Origin: Rhynochetos jubatus
Lineage: Eukaryota > Chordata > Aves > Eurypygiformes > Rhynochetidae
DNA length: 64,000 bases
Reading direction: 5' to 3'
NCBI GenBank assembly: GCA_027574665.1
Contig: CM050655.1
Span: 10,845,170 to 10,909,169 of the forward strand
Of the stretch, positions 4,025 through 41,612 are shown one piece after another (the stretch's first letter is position 1; the number at the start of each line of letters is the position of its first letter). Position numbers and translations under genes: made by a program. The notes beneath the pieces were generated by a model. That model worked only from the letters and a program-made list of their open reading frames with translations, did not search any database and was not told the DNA's origin.

Positions 4025-4176
4025 ATCACCCCTGGCAGCAAGGCAGCACAGTCGCAGATGAACCAAGGGGATCTTGTGGTAGCCATTGATGGAGTCAACA
4101 CTGACAGCATGACGCACTTAGAGGCCCAAAACAAGATCAAGTCAGCCAGCCACAACTTGAGCCTCACTCTTCAGAA
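4025..4176 (+). CDS. LDB3: LDB3 exon 2: PDZ domain, second part
   Basis: A 152-nt exon reading [20 protein letters not shown] followed by [19 protein letters not shown] and [11 protein letters not shown], with two bases (AA) left for the next codon. This is the core of the PDZ fold: the GDLVVAIDG strand, the [10 protein letters not shown] helix that lines the ligand groove, and the last strand. In LDB3 this domain binds the C-terminus of alpha-actinin-2. The acceptor is cacacag before ATC and the donor is GTACGT. An open frame continues upstream from an ATG at 3968, but those residues are intronic. It differs from the human exon as I recall it at only a few residues (QMNQ for QLSQ, S for T, H for Y). 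The missing carboxylate-binding loop (PWGF) is on the exon before the window. Confidence 0.97.
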
Positions 4177-6395: not shown

Positions 6396-7234
6396 ATGAA
6401 GAGCCAAAGTAAGCAGTAAATGGAGCGTTCCACAGACGGAAATATGCTTGCACAGATAATAGATGTAGATGAGTTAAGATACTTTTTGAAAAGAGGAAAA
6501 ATGGCATAAAGTGATATGAAACACTCTTAAGCACAAATAGGTCAGACAGCTTCTTTGTTAGCAAGTAAAAACTTACACAGGTGATGCTTTGGCATTAAAC
6601 TTACACAATTCATAGAATCTTTTCTTCTGTGTTAGTTGCTTTTTGATATGAGCTGTTATTTCACACTGATGACCCATTCAGCCTCATGAGAGTTCTATGG
6701 GGAAAAACAAATGACAAAGACTGAAAAGTAATTGTATTTTTTTAGTAGTATTGTTTCTGAGATGATTAGGGCCTGTTCAAGAAGTTGTGCTCAGAGGTGT
6801 TAAGCTGGTTCACTTTGCACAATTCAGTATTTATACAAACTAAACCTTGTCAGCATGTGACCCCAGCCAAATGATGTAGGACCCTATCAAAGATCCACGA
6901 TCCCAATGTCTTAAACTTTTGGGAAGTTATATTAATTTCACCTTGAAAAAGCATTTTTCCTTGGCACAAATGGGTTAATTTGCCTAAGTACAATAAGACT
7001 GTGGCGGTTCAGTCACCTGCCCAAAATTTTCAAGAACATACACTCTTTTTCTCAACAATAATTTTTCAAAAATTGTATTTGTGCAAAGAAGAATAGGTAA
7101 CATGGAAAAGATGGGAGCGGTCACTAATAATATTTTTCAATCCAATAAGAACAAAACAGGAGAAAGGCAAAATCTCCTGGGACTTGGTTACCTGGAAAAT
7201 GACTGTCTTAAGAGATCATTTTAATTGTTAGACG

Positions 7235-8095
7235 TGGCTTGCCACAACAAAACTGGTGTTCCACCACAGTGGACCATCAGAGGGACCCGGACAGGCTGGA
7301 GAGGTGGGCCTGTGCCAACCTCATGGAGTTCAACAAGGCCAAGTGCAAGGTCCTGCACCTGGGTCAGGGCAATCCCAAGCACAAGGACAGTCTGAGTGGA
7401 GAATGGATCGAGAGCAGCCCTGAGGAGAAGGACTTGGGGGTACTGGTGGATGAAAAGCTGGTCATGAGCCAGCAGTGTGTGCTGGCAGCCCAGAAAGCCA
7501 ACCACATCCTGGTCTGTATCCAGAGAAGTGTGGCCAGTATGTCAAGGGAGGGGATTCTCCCCCTCTGCTCTGCTCCCGTGAGACCCCACCTGGAGTTCTG
7601 CATCCAGATCCGGGGCGCCCAGCGTAAGGGTATCAGCTGGTTGGAGTGAGCCCAGAGGAGGCCATGAAGGCCCCACCCTCTGCCATGGGCACAGGCTGAG
7701 AGAGTGGGGCTTGTTCAGCCCGGAGAAGAGAAGGCTTTGGGGAGGCCTTCTAGCAGCCTTCTGCTACATGAAGGGCCTACAAGGAAGCTGGGGGGAGACT
7801 TTTTACAAGGGCCTGTAGTGACAGGACAAGGGGTGATGGGTTTAAATTGAAAGTGGGGAGATTTAGATTAGATATCAGGAAGAAATTCGTCACGGAGAGG
7901 GTGGGGAGGCACTGGGACAGGTTGCCCAGAGAAGCTGTGGGTGCCCCATTCCTGGGAGTGTCCAAGGCCAGGCTGGATGAGGCTCTGAGCAACCTGGTCT
8001 AGTGGAGGGTGACCCTGCCTATGGCAGGGAGGTTGGAGTTATGGTCTATAAGATCCCTTCCAACCCAAACCACTCTATAATTCTGCTATGGAAAA
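7235..8095 (+). mobile_element. CR1 LINE, 5'-truncated copy
   Basis: A 5'-truncated copy of the chicken-repeat-1 family of non-LTR retrotransposons, in the same orientation as LDB3. From 7239 to 7649 a frame reads the end of the reverse-transcriptase [42 protein letters not shown] and [20 protein letters not shown] are typical of CR1 ORF2. The family 3' UTR follows, with the phrases acaggttgcccagagaagct and gatcccttccaacccaaacc. The end near 8090 is a degraded version of the usual short ATTCTATG repeat. The catalytic part of the polymerase and the endonuclease are absent and the 3' part has substitutions, so it is inert. CR1 is the dominant LINE in bird and reptile genomes. Confidence 0.95.
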
Positions 8096-26616: not shown

Positions 26617-26673
26617 TGCATGTGTTCTATGATTGCTCTTTTCTTTTTTTTTTTTCTTTTCCTGGCCTGCATG
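26617..26673 (+). promoter_or_regulatory. Two RBFOX-type TGCATG motifs before exon 4
   Basis: TGCATG occurs at 26617-26622 and 26668-26673, that is 65 and 14 nt before the exon 4 start at 26687. The second lies between the T-rich tract and the acceptor AG. UGCAUG is the high-affinity RBFOX1/2 element, and RBFOX bound upstream of an exon usually represses it. The motifs are seen directly; repression of exon 4 through them is inference. Confidence 0.55.
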
Positions 26674-26686
26674 TTTGCTACTACAG

Positions 26687-27093
26687 GAACCTGCTTGGGA
26701 AATCAATGGCAACAGAACCACCTTCAGTCCTCTAACTAACACGGCGACTGGGCCTGTGGGTAGTATTTTAGCAACCAATGGAACGTTTTCAGGCTACCTC
26801 AACAAGCAAGAGATCAGCTTTTCTAATAGCTCCTCCTACTTAAAGACCACCACAGTTAGATCTTCCATGTCCTCTCAGTCCGTGACTCCTGACACTTCTC
26901 CTGCCAAGAGTAACGTAGGTTCCAAACGAAGCCCTGTATTGACCGATGGCAATAGTCCTTTACAGCAGCTGAGCCCCGCGAGGCAGTATAACAACCCCAT
27001 TGGCCTCTACTCAGCAGAGACTCTAAGGGAAATGGCTGAGATGCATAAATTAAGTCTCAACCGAAGGGCTTCGGAAGGCGGACTTCCTAGAGG
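26687..27093 (+). CDS. LDB3: LDB3 exon 4: cardiac-type ZM exon
   Basis: A 407-nt exon starting EPAWEINGNRTTFS in phase 0 and ending with a two-base remainder (GG). About the first 95 codons are low-complexity Ser/Thr/Asn/Pro sequence, probably disordered. Only the end is strongly family-like: the ZM motif RQYNNPIGLYSAETLREMAE followed by a basic tail ending EGGLPRG. The ZM (ZASP-like) motif helps bind the alpha-actinin rod. In mammals this exon is used in heart. From memory the human exon is 368 nt, so this one is about 13 codons longer. The acceptor is ctactacag after a T-rich tract; the donor is GTAGGT. The ORF running upstream to 26633 is a read-through of the pyrimidine tract and not coding. 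Confidence 0.95.
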
Positions 27094-27171
27094 GTAGGTA
27101 CCGCGGTGAAACATTTAATATTTCAGTAAGTCATGAATTTGCTAGAAAATGAATGTAATAGTACCTACCCT
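27091..27171 (+). promoter_or_regulatory. Stem-loop covering the exon 4 donor site
   Basis: AGGGTAGGTAC (27091-27101) and GTACCTACCCT (27161-27171) are perfect reverse complements, giving an 11-bp stem with a 59-nt loop. The 5' arm contains the last three exon bases and the whole donor GTAGGT (27094-27099), so in the pre-mRNA the U1 snRNA site would be paired. The loop holds a second donor-like GTAAGT (27126-27131); its use would add 32 nt and place TAG in frame. Structure-masked donor sites are a known way to control alternative exons. That this one folds and acts in cells is inference. Confidence 0.6.
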
Positions 27172-29034
27172 ATTGTGCATTTGTCTGATAAATCATGATT
27201 AAGGTCTGGAACGATGGTTACATTTTCCAGTACCCCCCCAAACGTATACACAGTACCATTACAGAATAACTCTTGGTCTTTGGTATCTGAATTGCAATGT
27301 GGATTGGCAATAGGCACCAGAGCATGAGGAGGAACACTACAACTGCAGTAGCTGTGATCATCCCAGGGTTCTGGCATTCAGTGATTTAAACTAATGCAGG
27401 TAGCCTCGTAGAACCAGGGGTTGCTGTCGGCCGTTAAGGAAGCTGCTATAAAACAGGTCTGTCTTTGGTACTCTCCTAAAGAGAAACTGCTTTGGCCAGC
27501 AAACCTGACATGCTAGACTACTGGAGTGTCCCGCTGTGACTCCTGCCTTAATGTATTGGCTTTCCTATGCAAAATTAGTGAAAACTGCCATATTTTGGAT
27601 CCTCTGGTTTGAGCACTGTCTGTCTCGCATCCATTAGCTTTGCTTTTAACTTGTCTGTAACAAGGAGTGATCTCTAGGTGGTAGTACCCTGACAGTTTGA
27701 TGCCATGCCATCAAAGTTTTCAGTGCAGATCATCTGTTTTACTGGTAGGTTTGTGAAGTGAGGAGCTTGGACTACATACAATGCATGAGAAACAGCAATG
27801 AGAAACAGGTTTTCCTCATTTTTCTGCCTCCATGTATTAATTTGCAAACGAATCTCTAATTTCTTTATTTGTGTTTATTTAAAATGAAGATAAAATTCCT
27901 TATTATGAATATGGGAACTAGTGTACTTGACACTGGGGAGCTGGCTACATGAGGAAAACCAGAAAATTCAGACAATCCGCTCGAGGCCTGATAGCAAATG
28001 TTTTCAAGTACTTTATATCCCACTGCAGAAGCTATTTGCAAGAGTAAAACCAAGGGGGTTTAAGTTGCAGCAAAGTAAGGGTATTTTATCCTGATATATG
28101 AGCATACGTACCTGTTCTAGATGATTCAGGCGGTTTAGATGATTCATTGTAACTCTCTTGAGCAGTCGGCATGAACAGTCCTAATTAACTTACCTGAAAA
28201 AATCCTATCCTCCCTTCTCATACGGGATAATTAAGAAAGGCAATTAGTGTTTAAAAGAAAATAATTTCAGTTCGTGAGCAAGATCAGCAAAATAAACCTC
28301 AGAACGCTTCTCTCTCAATTTGCAGTTTTCTTGAGGAAAACTAACCCTTGTCTAATTCCAATATGCAGAGTTTCCTGGGAGTATGTCTCGCTGCCTTCAC
28401 AGCCCTCCTTAACATCTGCAAGGGGGAGGGCGAAGGGGCTGGATTTTGGATGGCTCAGCGGTTTGGCTGTTTTCTTACACAGCTGCATCCATCACCCACC
28501 AAAGTCCGCGTGAACCATTCCGCTGATTCCAGAAGGCATTGCGATGTGACCACGCGACGTGACAGCCGTTGCTGGGGTGCAGAAACGGTGTACCTGCAGA
28601 AACACTTCACTGCCTTCGCCCTGCTGCTTTTCCGTGGTTTAGGTCTCCTCCTTGTGTACGCGGTGCACGCCCGTGGCAGTGCACTCAATTACAGAGTAAG
28701 GTGCTACCTCAAAACAACCATCTGAGATTATATTTTTTTTTTTTAATTTGATCAAAATTTTAGGGAATGGCTGTCTTACCTGGCTGTAATATCTGTAGCA
28801 CTGATGAGCAAATCAGATAATTATGAGAAATCATCTAAATGTTCTGTTAAAAAATTCAGCCTTTGTCCTGCAGCCCAGGCAAAATCTGAAAATATGAGAG
28901 CCCGGAGTTACTAAGGACATGTGTCTTTTCAGGTAATTCCCCTGAGATTTAGACAATTGCACCTCTCTGTTCACATGCAGAGAAAATTCAGCGTTCATTA
29001 ATCCTGTCATTCCCACTCCCACTTGAGGGTTACC

Positions 29035-35134: not shown

Positions 35135-35338
35135 CACGGAGTTCACGGAGCGTTTCAACCCCAACGTCCTGAAGGACTCTGCCCTGTCTACGCACAAACC
35201 CATTGAGGTGAAAGGCCTCGGCGGCAAGGCTACCATCATTCACGCCCAGTATAACACCCCCATCAGCATGTATTCCCAAGATGCTATCATGGATGCAATT
35301 GCAGGCCAGGCACAAGCCCAGGGTGGAGAATTTGCTAG
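35135..35338 (+). CDS. LDB3: LDB3 exon 6: skeletal-type ZM exon
   Basis: A 204-nt exon. Its first base completes the Asn codon from exon 5; it then reads TEFTERFNPNVLKDSALSTH, KPIEVKGLGGKATIIHAQYN and TPISMYSQDAIMDAIAGQAQ, ending AQGGEFA plus AG. The ZM motif is IHAQYNTPISMYSQDAIMDA. Numbered as in human skeletal ZASP, the Lys and Ala residues affected in human myopathy variants (K136, A147, A165) are unchanged. The acceptor is taacccag after a long C/T tract; the donor is GTAAGG. The length is a multiple of three, so it can also be skipped or joined to exon 4 in frame. A 182-aa minus-strand ORF over this exon is a shadow of it. Confidence 0.96.
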
Positions 35339-38300
35339 GTAAGGTTCTTTCCTTGTGTGGAATGCCCTTGTTCTGCATGATACATCTAACAGTCCCTACG
35401 CGCATGACACGGCACCTCTTCCCGGGCTTCTTTTTATCTTACACACAAAACCCACAAATCAGTCCTAGGTAGTGCTTGAAAGCACTTGGTTGTTTTGAAG
35501 TTAAAAGGATGGATAGTTAGGAAGTGTAACGTTTCTTTTTTGGTCTCCTTCCCAGAACTGGTAAACCCCTCAAAGCTACAGCTAGCGCTCTGTATATGGC
35601 AGTGGACGGCTCTTCATTTGTGCTTTGTGATAACCACTGTATTACATGCCTGTCTCAGAACAGGAAAGGGGGGCTGGAATTTTTATTGATACCTGAAGAA
35701 TGCAGAATATTTATTTGGTACTGGCTACTGTTTCATTCATCAGGGTGCAGTGTTGTCCTGTATCGTCCCTGTCCCTAGTTTACGTGTCTTACGCATATCC
35801 GTTGGCCTCTGGCAAAATCCACTGAGCTTTAATAATTCTGCTTCTCCCCGTGTGTGTTTCTGGTAATCTTTTCTGATAAGCCTATCCACAGTGGTGATGA
35901 CTTAACTGAAATTACACGTGCGATGAATGCAGCCCGGTTTCTCTCTTCCTGCCCAAAACAGAACTTACCTTCTTTTCATGTGACACCAAAATGTAGGTAT
36001 AGCAACATCCTTTAACCTAGTTTCTTTTGAATATGCTAGCTGCAGCCTTATTCTAAATTTAGGTATTTTACGTATTTGCTTGTGCTCCCTTTTACTGGCT
36101 ATTTCTCTTTTTTTTTTTTATTTTTTTCCCCCTATGGATTTTTTTGCACCGCTGCTGTTCTGTTGGCCAGCCCAACACTCCCTAATGATGGATCCCAAGC
36201 AATACCTTGAGTTGGTTTTGTCCATGACGCGGTGAATCTCCACAGGTGTAAGTCGACTCAGATTTCCCATGAGCCAAATCCCATGAAAGAAGTTGATGCT
36301 CTTGTTGTTCCTGAGAATGGTTCACATCTTTCACAGGCACGGACTGCCGAGTCCTTGCACCGGGAGCAGCAAGAGCGGTGGTCAGCACCACTAGCAAAAG
36401 CTCTGCTCTACATTTTTTTTCTCATTTTGGACGTGGAATCCACCTATCACACGGGTTTTTTTGAATGAGATGGTTATTTCCATAATCCTCTTGTATCAGG
36501 CAGTTCTAGTGGAACATTATTTCTTGCAGACAACTCCATGACTATGTTCTCCCCTTAATGCTGCAAAACCAGTTTTTCTGCGAGATCCACTATATAAACT
36601 GCCGTTTAAGCTTTTCCTTCCTTACAGAACATTCACCTGGCCCCAGAAGAAACTGGTGTTTCTATTCCTTAAGTTTTACCTTAAGTCACTGAGATCAGAG
36701 TCAGGCTCATGGCGCTTAGAAAATGCCCCACACGTACGGAATCACCAAGGAAAACACAAAGGAAAGCATTTAAATTATTTGTACTGCAGTTATTCAGACC
36801 TCATGCTGGAACTTAATGGTAGAAAAATTTGAATGCCCTGACTTTGTATCCTTTCTTGCTCTTTGTTTTAATTGATTTTCTATACCAAGAACCAAGAGTT
36901 GGTTGGAATAAAACTATGTGGCTGGTACATTTCTGTCAAACCTCTTCCAAATTCTATTGTGCAGAATTTTAGCCAAATTCCCAAGTCATGTAAGTAGACA
37001 TAAATCCAACAGCTTCATTAGGGTTACGATCTAGCAGTTCTAGTAGCATAATCAATAATGTGATTGAACAAATTCAATCAAGTCACGTGTATCCTCTACA
37101 AGAAGTCAGCTTGGCTGGATAATTTACTGGTCTCCAGGAACTGTTTGTTTGTCGGGTTGTTTGGGGTTTTTTACCTCTTAGAGTTTTTTTTAAGAGTTGG
37201 AATCAGTCTAATATCCAAAGTCACAATATTTTGTTATATGTCTACATCAGGGGCAGAACACTGCAGTGTTCCTAGGTTTGTACTTCTAATCTGCTAAAAA
37301 TAATTCTGAATGATGACTCCAGGGAGCGATTCACATGGTAAATCAGAGTTTGTCATGACCTCCAAGAAAAAGATCATATTGCTACTTATTCAGAGAGGTT
37401 TGACCGTCTTTAAAGCTTGATAATAACCTGTGGCTTGTGTGATGATGTGGAAAAGGGGGACAATTTTTATTGAATCCTGCTAAAATACCTTGGGCTATAA
37501 TATGAAAAACCCTCAAAAGCACTAACCCATTTGGGACAAATTTTTTTTTTCAGTAACATCAATTTGAAGTAATATGCTTAAGGATGCGTGGTATTTCTGC
37601 TCATACACACCCAGATGGAAAAAAATTAAATTAGGAAGAGGTATAACAGAGGTATTAACATGGTTATGTGCATCTTTCGGCTGTCTGCAAGAATCAACTG
37701 TCACATTTAGGTTTATGAAATGCTCGTAATCAGCGAGGCACTGTATTTTACACTTCCACGCTGAGTGGCTCATATGTCCTACTTACTCATCTACAATATA
37801 ATTACAATTTTAAAGAAGAAAAAGGCCTGCTGCATTAAAGACACTTGGAAATATTCCAATGTATTGCATTAATTTAGTTCAATTTATAGGAGCGTGTTTC
37901 ACTCTGCTAGGGAAGGTTAATTCACCAAGCTCCATTTCCTCCCTTAATCATCCACCATAAGGGTATTAATATGTCATATTAATGCCACACATTGCTACTG
38001 TGAAATTTGTGGTCCAGATTCTAGCGGTTTTTAACTACTTTTGAGCTAATGACATATCTATCCATACGCTTTTAAACTGCTTTTTCGTATCTTGGTCATA
38101 ACATAAGAACAAAGCATTTCAGCTAGAGGATTTAAACAAAGGAACTTGAACTGCTCCTGGTGTGCACGCCAGAGCAGGGGGTGGTTGCCACCAGCAGTGC
38201 TATCCAGTGGTTTGTTATCCAGCCCGCAGCAGTCTGCAGCTGTGGAACCCGCTATCCCATGCAGCAGGGTTTTAAGCTTCAGCAGGATTAAGCAGTAAGC

Positions 38301-40484: not shown

Positions 40485-40654
40485 TACCCTTCCTCTTAAA
40501 GACCCTCACGTAGACAGTGCCTCCCCAGTCTATCAGGCTGTGCTTAAAACCCAGAACAAGCCTGAAGATGAAACCGAAGACTGGAGCCGCCGTTCTGCCA
40601 ACCTGCAGTCTAAGTCTTTCCGCATCCTTGCCCAGATGACTGGAACGGAGTACA
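40485..40654 (+). CDS. LDB3: LDB3 exon 7: constitutive post-ZM segment
   Basis: A 170-nt exon reading [40 protein letters not shown] and [16 protein letters not shown] after one carried base, ending with one base (A) of a Met codon. It is common to the cardiac and skeletal forms: exon 4 supplies GG and exon 6 supplies AG before its first T. The human version ([20 protein letters not shown]…) aligns without gaps after the first residues. The [19 protein letters not shown] block is typical of the Enigma-type PDZ-LIM proteins LDB3 and PDLIM5. The acceptor is gaattgcag and the donor GTAAGT. If exon 3 were joined directly, the frame would hit TAA at the fifth codon. Confidence 0.96.
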
Positions 40655-41612
40655 GTAAGTCAAATAACAAAACATCCCCCTCGCACTGATTTTAGATTCG
40701 TGTCTTCGTTTTCTCACCCCAGTATCGGCAGCTGATGCTCAAGGAAGGCTCGTGTTGAGCTTGTAGTCGTTGTCGGTGAGGGCTGCGATCAGAGAGCCCT
40801 GGGCGTCACTTGAGGGAACGAGGAAGTCCAGTGTTCAGTCTCACCTCATGCTGTATGAAGAAAATTCCTTGATCTGCCAGGGGCCTCACCACAGAATTAG
40901 AACAGACTATACAGTAGAAGAGCATTTGGGATCCCGTAGCTCCTTCTTAGAACCCAAATCCCATAGCCTTTCACTTTCCAGCAGCCTAGACATAGGAGGC
41001 TGACCATTCACCGGAAAGAAAGCTGAACAATTTATGTCACTTTTAACAGCCTTCTATAGAAGGATCTCCCAGAGGTCAAAAAAACCCGTGGATCACCACC
41101 TTTACAGTTCTGTCAGCCCTGTTACCTAAACCTAGATCTGCGGTGAATGTCATGGGAGCTTGAGCTTTGTTGCCTGTGGAAATGTTTTTCTGACCACCTT
41201 GGTACTACCCTCACAGCTTCTTTCTGCTGTAGAGAGAAGGAAGTTCAGGGACCTTTCCCACATCAGGGCAAAATACTTAGTATTTGCTCCTCACATGACC
41301 CTGCGGCTGCCTCTCATGTTTCCTACAGAGCAGCAGGCCCTCTCTCCAGAATCATTGCCTGCAGCTGTGAAACACTGCTAATAAATGAGTGAGAAAGTAG
41401 TCGTAACAGCTACTTTCCTACTAACATCCTTCTTCCTAGCTCTAGGGGACCGCTCCTCTTCATGCTGTTCTTACAAAACCCACTGCTGCAAAAGCAGCGT
41501 GAGTGCACCTTTAGACAGGCTTTTGATATGTTTCTAAAGATCTTGTAATTTCATCGTAAAGCCAATTCATTCCTTCCTTTCTGTTTCAATGGAAACATTT
41601 TTTTGCCTGCAG
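40655..41612 (+). other. LDB3: LDB3 intron 7 (about 1 kb)
   Basis: Short intron between exons 7 and 8, with a T-rich tract and acceptor gcctgcag at its end. Nothing else recognisable. Confidence 0.85.

Follow-up and report, generated by a model that had tools for sequence, protein, structure and literature searches.

Hairpins at 5′ splice sites that alter splicing are established for exon 10 of MAPT, an alternative exon whose donor is paired within a local hairpin; this pairing is considered to restrict use of the exon (PMC11802352, PMC9236610). Disease mutations, NMR and in-cell probing all support the MAPT hairpin, and it is modulated by the helicase DDX5 (p68), as indicated by the title of a study cited in the same report (PMC9236610). 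A pre-miRNA-like hairpin tied to an alternative exon, with splicing promoted by Drosha, is also reported (PMC4006729). In Dscam1-type systems of competing selectors, a docking site can pair with a selector at each of the competing exons.

In the gene LDB3 (ZASP/Cypher), the choice between exon 4 and exons 5–7 is a heart-versus-skeletal splicing choice that is altered on loss of RBM20 or QKI. In mice that lose QKI, exon 4 of Ldb3 is reported to be skipped in part and exons 5–7 to be included, and overexpression of QKI in neonatal rat myocytes is reported to shift Ldb3 in the reverse direction (PMC10202634). RBM20 is described as promoting exon 4 in rodents, with the choice between exon 4 and exons 5–7 changing on its loss; in Rbm20 I538T mice, exons 5–7 are reported in homozygous hearts, with exon 4 still included in all genotypes (PMC9691496). 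This control acts in trans via proteins, and the accessible parts of its descriptions mention no RNA hairpin; structure probing is reported for another Ldb3 exon (exon 10, with MBNL binding; PMC5730568). A search by titles and the beginnings of abstracts, with most subscription papers and supplements outside its reach, found no published hairpin at the donor of LDB3 exon 4 among the papers listed.

The exon 4 donor of LDB3 in the bird Rhynochetos jubatus would be a candidate new case of donor-masking hairpins. As in MAPT exon 10, the donor nucleotides of an exon are base-paired, here in a predicted fold. Unlike its counterpart in MAPT, the LDB3 hairpin is a prediction, with a perfect stem of 11 bp and a wide, folded loop. 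It concerns the same gene and the same choice of exon 4 versus exons 5–7 as the control by QKI and RBM20 in rodents.

The LDB3 gene and its two ZM exons

The window analysed is a stretch of 64,000 nt of the R. jubatus genome. The gene in it is LDB3, the best PDB match of a half-PDZ exon at ~4025–4176 being LIM domain-binding protein 3/ZASP/Cypher (4ydp, 1rgw, 1wjl). Two ZM exons are present (table 1), and the exon homologous to the first of them is alternative in rodents. We take the first to be the cardiac exon 4 and the second the skeletal-type exon competing with it, an assignment based on the exon order and sequence of human LDB3 together with the exon choice reported in rodents. The ZM motif of exon 4 scores 28.0 bits with the Pfam family DUF4749, slightly below the cut-off of 28.7, and the first base of exon 8 completes the glycine codon split at the exon 4 donor.

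Two further regions of the window deserve a remark. Directly after the skeletal-type ZM exon, a pyrimidine-rich acceptor-like site precedes an open frame of 73 codons (35557–35775), which has no significant Pfam match and is possibly a further alternative exon. Open frames similar to the terminal part of the reverse transcriptase of CR1-type LINEs occur at 7212–8002; the first of them is without a significant Pfam match.

Table 1. Features of the LDB3 locus discussed in the text, with positions counted from the first nucleotide of the window.
Feature	Position	Strand	Remarks
LDB3 exon 4 (putative cardiac-type ZM exon), phase-2 donor	26687..27093	+	frame open from 26687; ZM motif QYNNPIGLYSAETLREMA; acceptor ...CTACTACAG; donor AGG/GTAGGT
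ACTAAC, QKI-type motif inside exon 4	26735..26740	+	
Predicted hairpin, 5′ arm	27091..27101	+	covers donor positions −3..+8
Exon 4 donor GTAGGT	27094..27099	+	predicted duplex with U1 of −11.1 kcal/mol, stronger than those of the other three LDB3 donors compared
Predicted hairpin, loop	27102..27160	+	itself predicted to fold (7 + 4 + 7 bp) within the 81-nt hairpin
Decoy donor GTAAGT, predicted as paired in inner stem	27126..27131	+	use would retain in-frame TAG
Predicted hairpin, 3′ arm	27161..27171	+	
ACTAAT, QKI-type motif	27390..27395	+	297 nt downstream of exon 4
Second ZM exon (putative skeletal-type), competitor of exon 4	35135..35338 approx.	+	start inferred from a CAG picked by eye; DUF4749 42.1 bits; donor TAG/GTAAGG, predicted opening ~4–5 kcal/mol
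Exon with second part of DUF4749	~40485–40654		DUF4749 40.2 bits

The surroundings of exon 4 contain motifs of several splicing-factor types. Two RBFOX-type TGCATG motifs lie within 70 nt upstream of the exon (26617–26622 and 26668–26673), flanking an extended pyrimidine tract in which TCTT, a motif of the RBM20/PTB type, occurs three times. The two QKI-type motifs would fit an activation of exon 4 by QKI as in the mouse; the downstream side is reported to be the activating one for this protein within the 200 nt examined, a range outside which the ACTAAT motif falls.

The predicted hairpin and the accessibility of the donor

The initial annotation of this DNA had pointed to a perfect 11-bp inverted repeat with a loop of 59 nt, one arm of which was said to cover the last three bases of exon 4 and the whole GTAGGT. 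Both statements hold: the arms AGGGTAGGTAC and GTACCTACCCT are perfectly complementary over 11 bp with 59 nt between them, and, since exon 4 ends at 27093, all nine donor positions (−3 to +6) lie inside the 5′ arm. The 3′ arm reads the same donor-like AGGGTAGGTAC on the minus strand, so that there is a donor-like site on each strand. The loop had been drawn as open, a picture that we reject, as it is predicted to form stems of its own, leaving a large 9/4 internal loop and an apical loop of 5 nt.

Folding calculations predict a strong structure. The 81-nt hairpin has a predicted energy of −26.7 kcal/mol, compared with a mean of −13.2 (sd 3.1) for 200 shuffled sequences, none of which is as stable (z −4.34; z −3.57 when 10 nt more are included on each side). 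The inner stem alone reaches −10.9 kcal/mol (z −1.91), a stability attained by 8 of 200 shuffles. In six contexts of 81–714 nt the pairs of the stem have probabilities of 0.90–1.0, except for one end pair with 0.72 in the shortest context. Under the energy sets Turner 2004, Turner 1999 and Langdon 2018, the probability exceeds 0.9 for almost every pair of the stem, and it does so at 41.5 °C too, about the body temperature of birds; the Andronescu 2007 set gives the weakest stem of the four, with most pairs at ~0.7 at 37 °C and ~0.8 at the higher temperature. An additional outer helix (27041–27048/27173–27180), strongly predicted with 160 and 281 nt of context, is absent at 481 nt or more and was therefore discarded; details of the fold thus depend on the context.

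Other origins for the structure were considered and set aside. A query of 301 bases around the hairpin hits one place in the 1.33-Gb genome (in a search that skips very common words), so we reject an origin from a repeat or transposon. A microRNA-like hairpin was likewise rejected, the window having no Rfam match at the gathering score and the loops being unsuitable; in the same features, namely the 9/4 internal loop, the 5-nt apical loop and the missing Rfam match, the LDB3 hairpin differs from the Drosha-promoted case (PMC4006729).

The predicted cost of opening the exon 4 donor is 9.6–11.2 kcal/mol when the 3′ arm is included in the flanks and 6.4 kcal/mol when the flanks end before it, as opposed to 1.4–1.8, 4.0–5.0 and 2.6–3.7 kcal/mol in the same contexts for the donors of exons 2, 6 and 8, respectively. 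Another context gives 11.0 kcal/mol for exon 4 versus 1.4, 4.1 and 3.9 for the same three exons, while with the Andronescu 2007 set the values are 7.1 versus 1.5, 5.9 and 1.9 kcal/mol, the gap to exon 6 being small. Deleting or scrambling the 3′ arm is predicted to lower the cost to about half, from 10.8 to 5.5 or 6.2 kcal/mol, respectively. In simulations of a growing transcript, the cost stays at 4.4–5.0 kcal/mol up to position 27163, is 5.4 at 27165 and reaches 10.8 at 27171; for comparison, the median of other donor-like sites is 4.9 kcal/mol. As the cost jumps only once the 3′ arm emerges, U1 would have a brief period in which it meets an ordinary donor. The predicted pairing with U1 (−11.1 kcal/mol) nearly balances the opening cost of 10.8 kcal/mol, with U1 energies that treat pseudouridine as U and ignore proteins. 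The donor matrix and the sequence of the U1 5′ end used in the scoring are those that we assume to apply.

The loop had also been said to hold a decoy donor whose use would bring a stop. A GTAAGT is indeed present there, matching the consensus perfectly at positions +1 to +6, and the frame read beyond 27093 runs immediately into a stop (GGG TAG). Opening the decoy is predicted to cost 8.1–8.3 kcal/mol and its predicted U1 duplex is weak (−5.6 kcal/mol). The 81-nt hairpin is predicted to hide both the true donor and the decoy.

Comparable sites in the genome and the related ZM exons

How unusual such an arrangement is depends on what is counted. The window contains four perfect repeats of at least 11 bp with loops of 3–100 nt, compared with a mean of 1.8 (sd 1.3) in 30 first-order Markov sequences. 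Across 18 sampled pieces of this genome, each 10 kb long, the count is 15, or 10 without low-complexity sequence, the latter equivalent to 3.6 per 64 kb. From the repeat density, simple arithmetic puts the chance of an 11-bp arm over all of −3 to +6 at an estimated 3.3e-4 per donor. For the other comparisons we used donor-like sites, defined as sites on either strand with a matrix score at most 1 bit below that of exon 4 rather than as annotated donors. Of 707 such sites in 244 kb, two are covered completely by a perfect 11-bp stem: the exon 4 donor and a second site, which has to be the 3′ arm read on the minus strand, since its 11 letters are the same. An opening cost at least as high as that of exon 4 was found at seven of the other 706 sites (0/194 in the window; 4/461 at a G+C content of 45% or less), which places the predicted occlusion above that of ordinary donor-like sites, in about the top 1%. 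A mean unpaired probability as low was seen at four of the 706, two of these in the window, and an 81-nt folding energy as low at 32 of the 706. When the exon and the donor were held fixed, 21 of 1000 shuffled introns produced equal occlusion. The initial annotation had called the match unlikely by chance; this stands for the exact 11-bp complement at one named donor (~3.3e-4) and fails for the strength of the occlusion, which is as high in 1–2% of controls. If a genome has on the order of 180,000 donors, dozens of them would be expected to carry such a stem. Together with the free choice of features in 64 kb, this means that a claim of function cannot rest on the repeat alone.

No further copy of either arm with at most one mismatch exists anywhere in the 64-kb window beyond this one pair, so that nothing in this comparison points to a partner at the competing exon. 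Such arm matches average 0.65 in 100 shuffles of the whole window, 16 of which contain at least two anywhere in the 64 kb. A scan of free duplexes in 30-nt pieces at 10-nt steps found partners of equal energy near 7001 and at 41191–41201; among the 15 best partners listed, none is near the 35-kb exon, and the nearest, at 28651, is ~1.5 kb away. A competing-selector system is therefore without support in this limited test, and we do not retain it.

To place the exon 4 donor among its relatives, we turned to the DUF4749 family in the genome, in which a search (with the best candidates scored) gave 10 matches. Six of them are ZM first-half exons: two belong to LDB3, and the remaining four lie elsewhere in two pairs. 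The five ZM donors found besides that of exon 4 are all phase 2, and their predicted opening costs are 1.6, 3.0, 3.9, 4.1 and 5.3 kcal/mol versus 11.0 for exon 4; the hairpin is thus not shared by the exon family, and we reject it as a common trait of ZM exons. Exon 4 has the costliest donor among 11 assigned donors in LDB3 and its paralogues, two of which are assigned uncertainly (L025, with two candidates at 3.8 and 7.2 kcal/mol, and L026, with a weak candidate at 6.9 kcal/mol). The donor at 1649 of locus L024, in a ZM second-half exon of a paralogous PDZ-LIM-type gene, comes close with 9.9 kcal/mol. We presume that exon to be constitutive, in which case such a cost need not stop splicing. 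Searched against its own genome, the exon 4 protein matches itself and three weak sequences (E 3.6–5.8). Neither 57 pattern matches in bacterial and archaeal contigs nor 12 in viral contigs include a relative in the form of stray vertebrate LDB3.

Possible roles of the hairpin

Our tentative interpretation, which we hold with somewhat less than even confidence, is that the 81-nt hairpin engages every nucleotide of the exon 4 donor in pairing and makes it less accessible to U1, acting as a local brake and not as a tissue switch. A brake on the baseline use of exon 4 would be the likeliest role, if there is any, because the tissue decision can be ascribed to factors of the QKI/RBM20 type and their motifs. 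In the nascent LDB3 transcript, the inverted repeat would fold into the hairpin over the donor. Until about 27163 the donor would be as open as ordinary ones and accessible to U1, and once 27171 is transcribed U1 would have to pay ~11 kcal/mol. The good match of the donor to U1 would roughly offset this cost and leave exon 4 near a tipping point. In the heart, QKI and RBM20 would favour exon 4; elsewhere, the brake would tip the competition towards the ZM exon at 35 kb. The repeat, the fold, its energies and the jump in cost on emergence of the 3′ arm come from computational prediction; we infer that the hairpin forms in cells and reduces the use of exon 4, and that the protein factors play their part in R. 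jubatus.

The brake is consistent with the stem probabilities, the z-score of −4.34, the gap in opening cost, the cost jump, the precedent of MAPT exon 10 and the rodent data on QKI and RBM20. Against it count the 21 of 1000 shuffles and the seven of 706 sites with equal occlusion, the small gap under the Andronescu 2007 set, the 9.9 kcal/mol of L024, the dependence of fold details on context and the fact that other stretches of the gene could pair about equally with the 5′ arm in a free duplex; U1 may also reach the donor ahead of transcription of the 3′ arm, and proteins might keep the RNA open. An alternative view is that the repeat arose by chance and has no measurable effect, U1 binding before the 3′ arm exists and proteins keeping the RNA open. 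This is quite possible too, and we prefer the brake over it only slightly: four such repeats occur in the window, equal occlusion in ~1–2% of controls, the five other ZM-exon donors are open, a scan of 64 kb meets many features, and at an estimated 3.3e-4 per donor a genome would hold dozens of them. What speaks against mere coincidence is that an exact stem covering the donor completely is rare, the other 705 of the 707 donor-like sites providing no independent example, and that the fold is strong and lies on an exon used alternatively in rodents.

The initial annotation had gone further and proposed a structural switch, in which the folded donor leads to skipping of exon 4 and an opened one to its use. 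The hidden donor has survived as a prediction, strongly in three of the four energy sets, and occlusion of the donor is plausible on the basis of these models; an evolved switch is unproven. An avian-specific switch, or one with a hairpin conserved in birds (or archosaurs), in which the hairpin is poised at near-equal energy with U1 and is unfolded in cardiac tissue by a helicase or by an RNA-binding protein, allowing use of exon 4, appears improbable to us. The idea can draw on the position of the hairpin on one of two competing exons, on the near balance of −11.1 and 10.8 kcal/mol and on MAPT exon 10 with its reported helicase DDX5, but neither arm has a second copy with at most one mismatch in the window, the other ZM donors are open, L024 reaches 9.9 kcal/mol, and published work on rodents attributes the choice to QKI and RBM20. 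Still further down we rank the possibility that the hairpin mainly silences the decoy GTAAGT at 27126, the true donor being paired incidentally. The decoy does sit in the inner stem with an opening cost of 8.1–8.3 kcal/mol, but that stem is modest when alone (−10.9 kcal/mol, z −1.91, 8/200 shuffles), the true donor is more deeply hidden and the U1 duplex of the decoy is weak (−5.6 kcal/mol), which makes this reading very improbable.

Should the hairpin be a product of chance, it would serve as a reminder that equally occluded donor-like sites occur at a rate of ~1 in 100. If the switch were true, a layer of RNA structure would be added to the choice between the cardiac and the skeletal ZM exon. 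If the brake is true in birds, the donor hairpin would set the baseline of this choice, a simple and testable structural layer beneath the protein-controlled switch.
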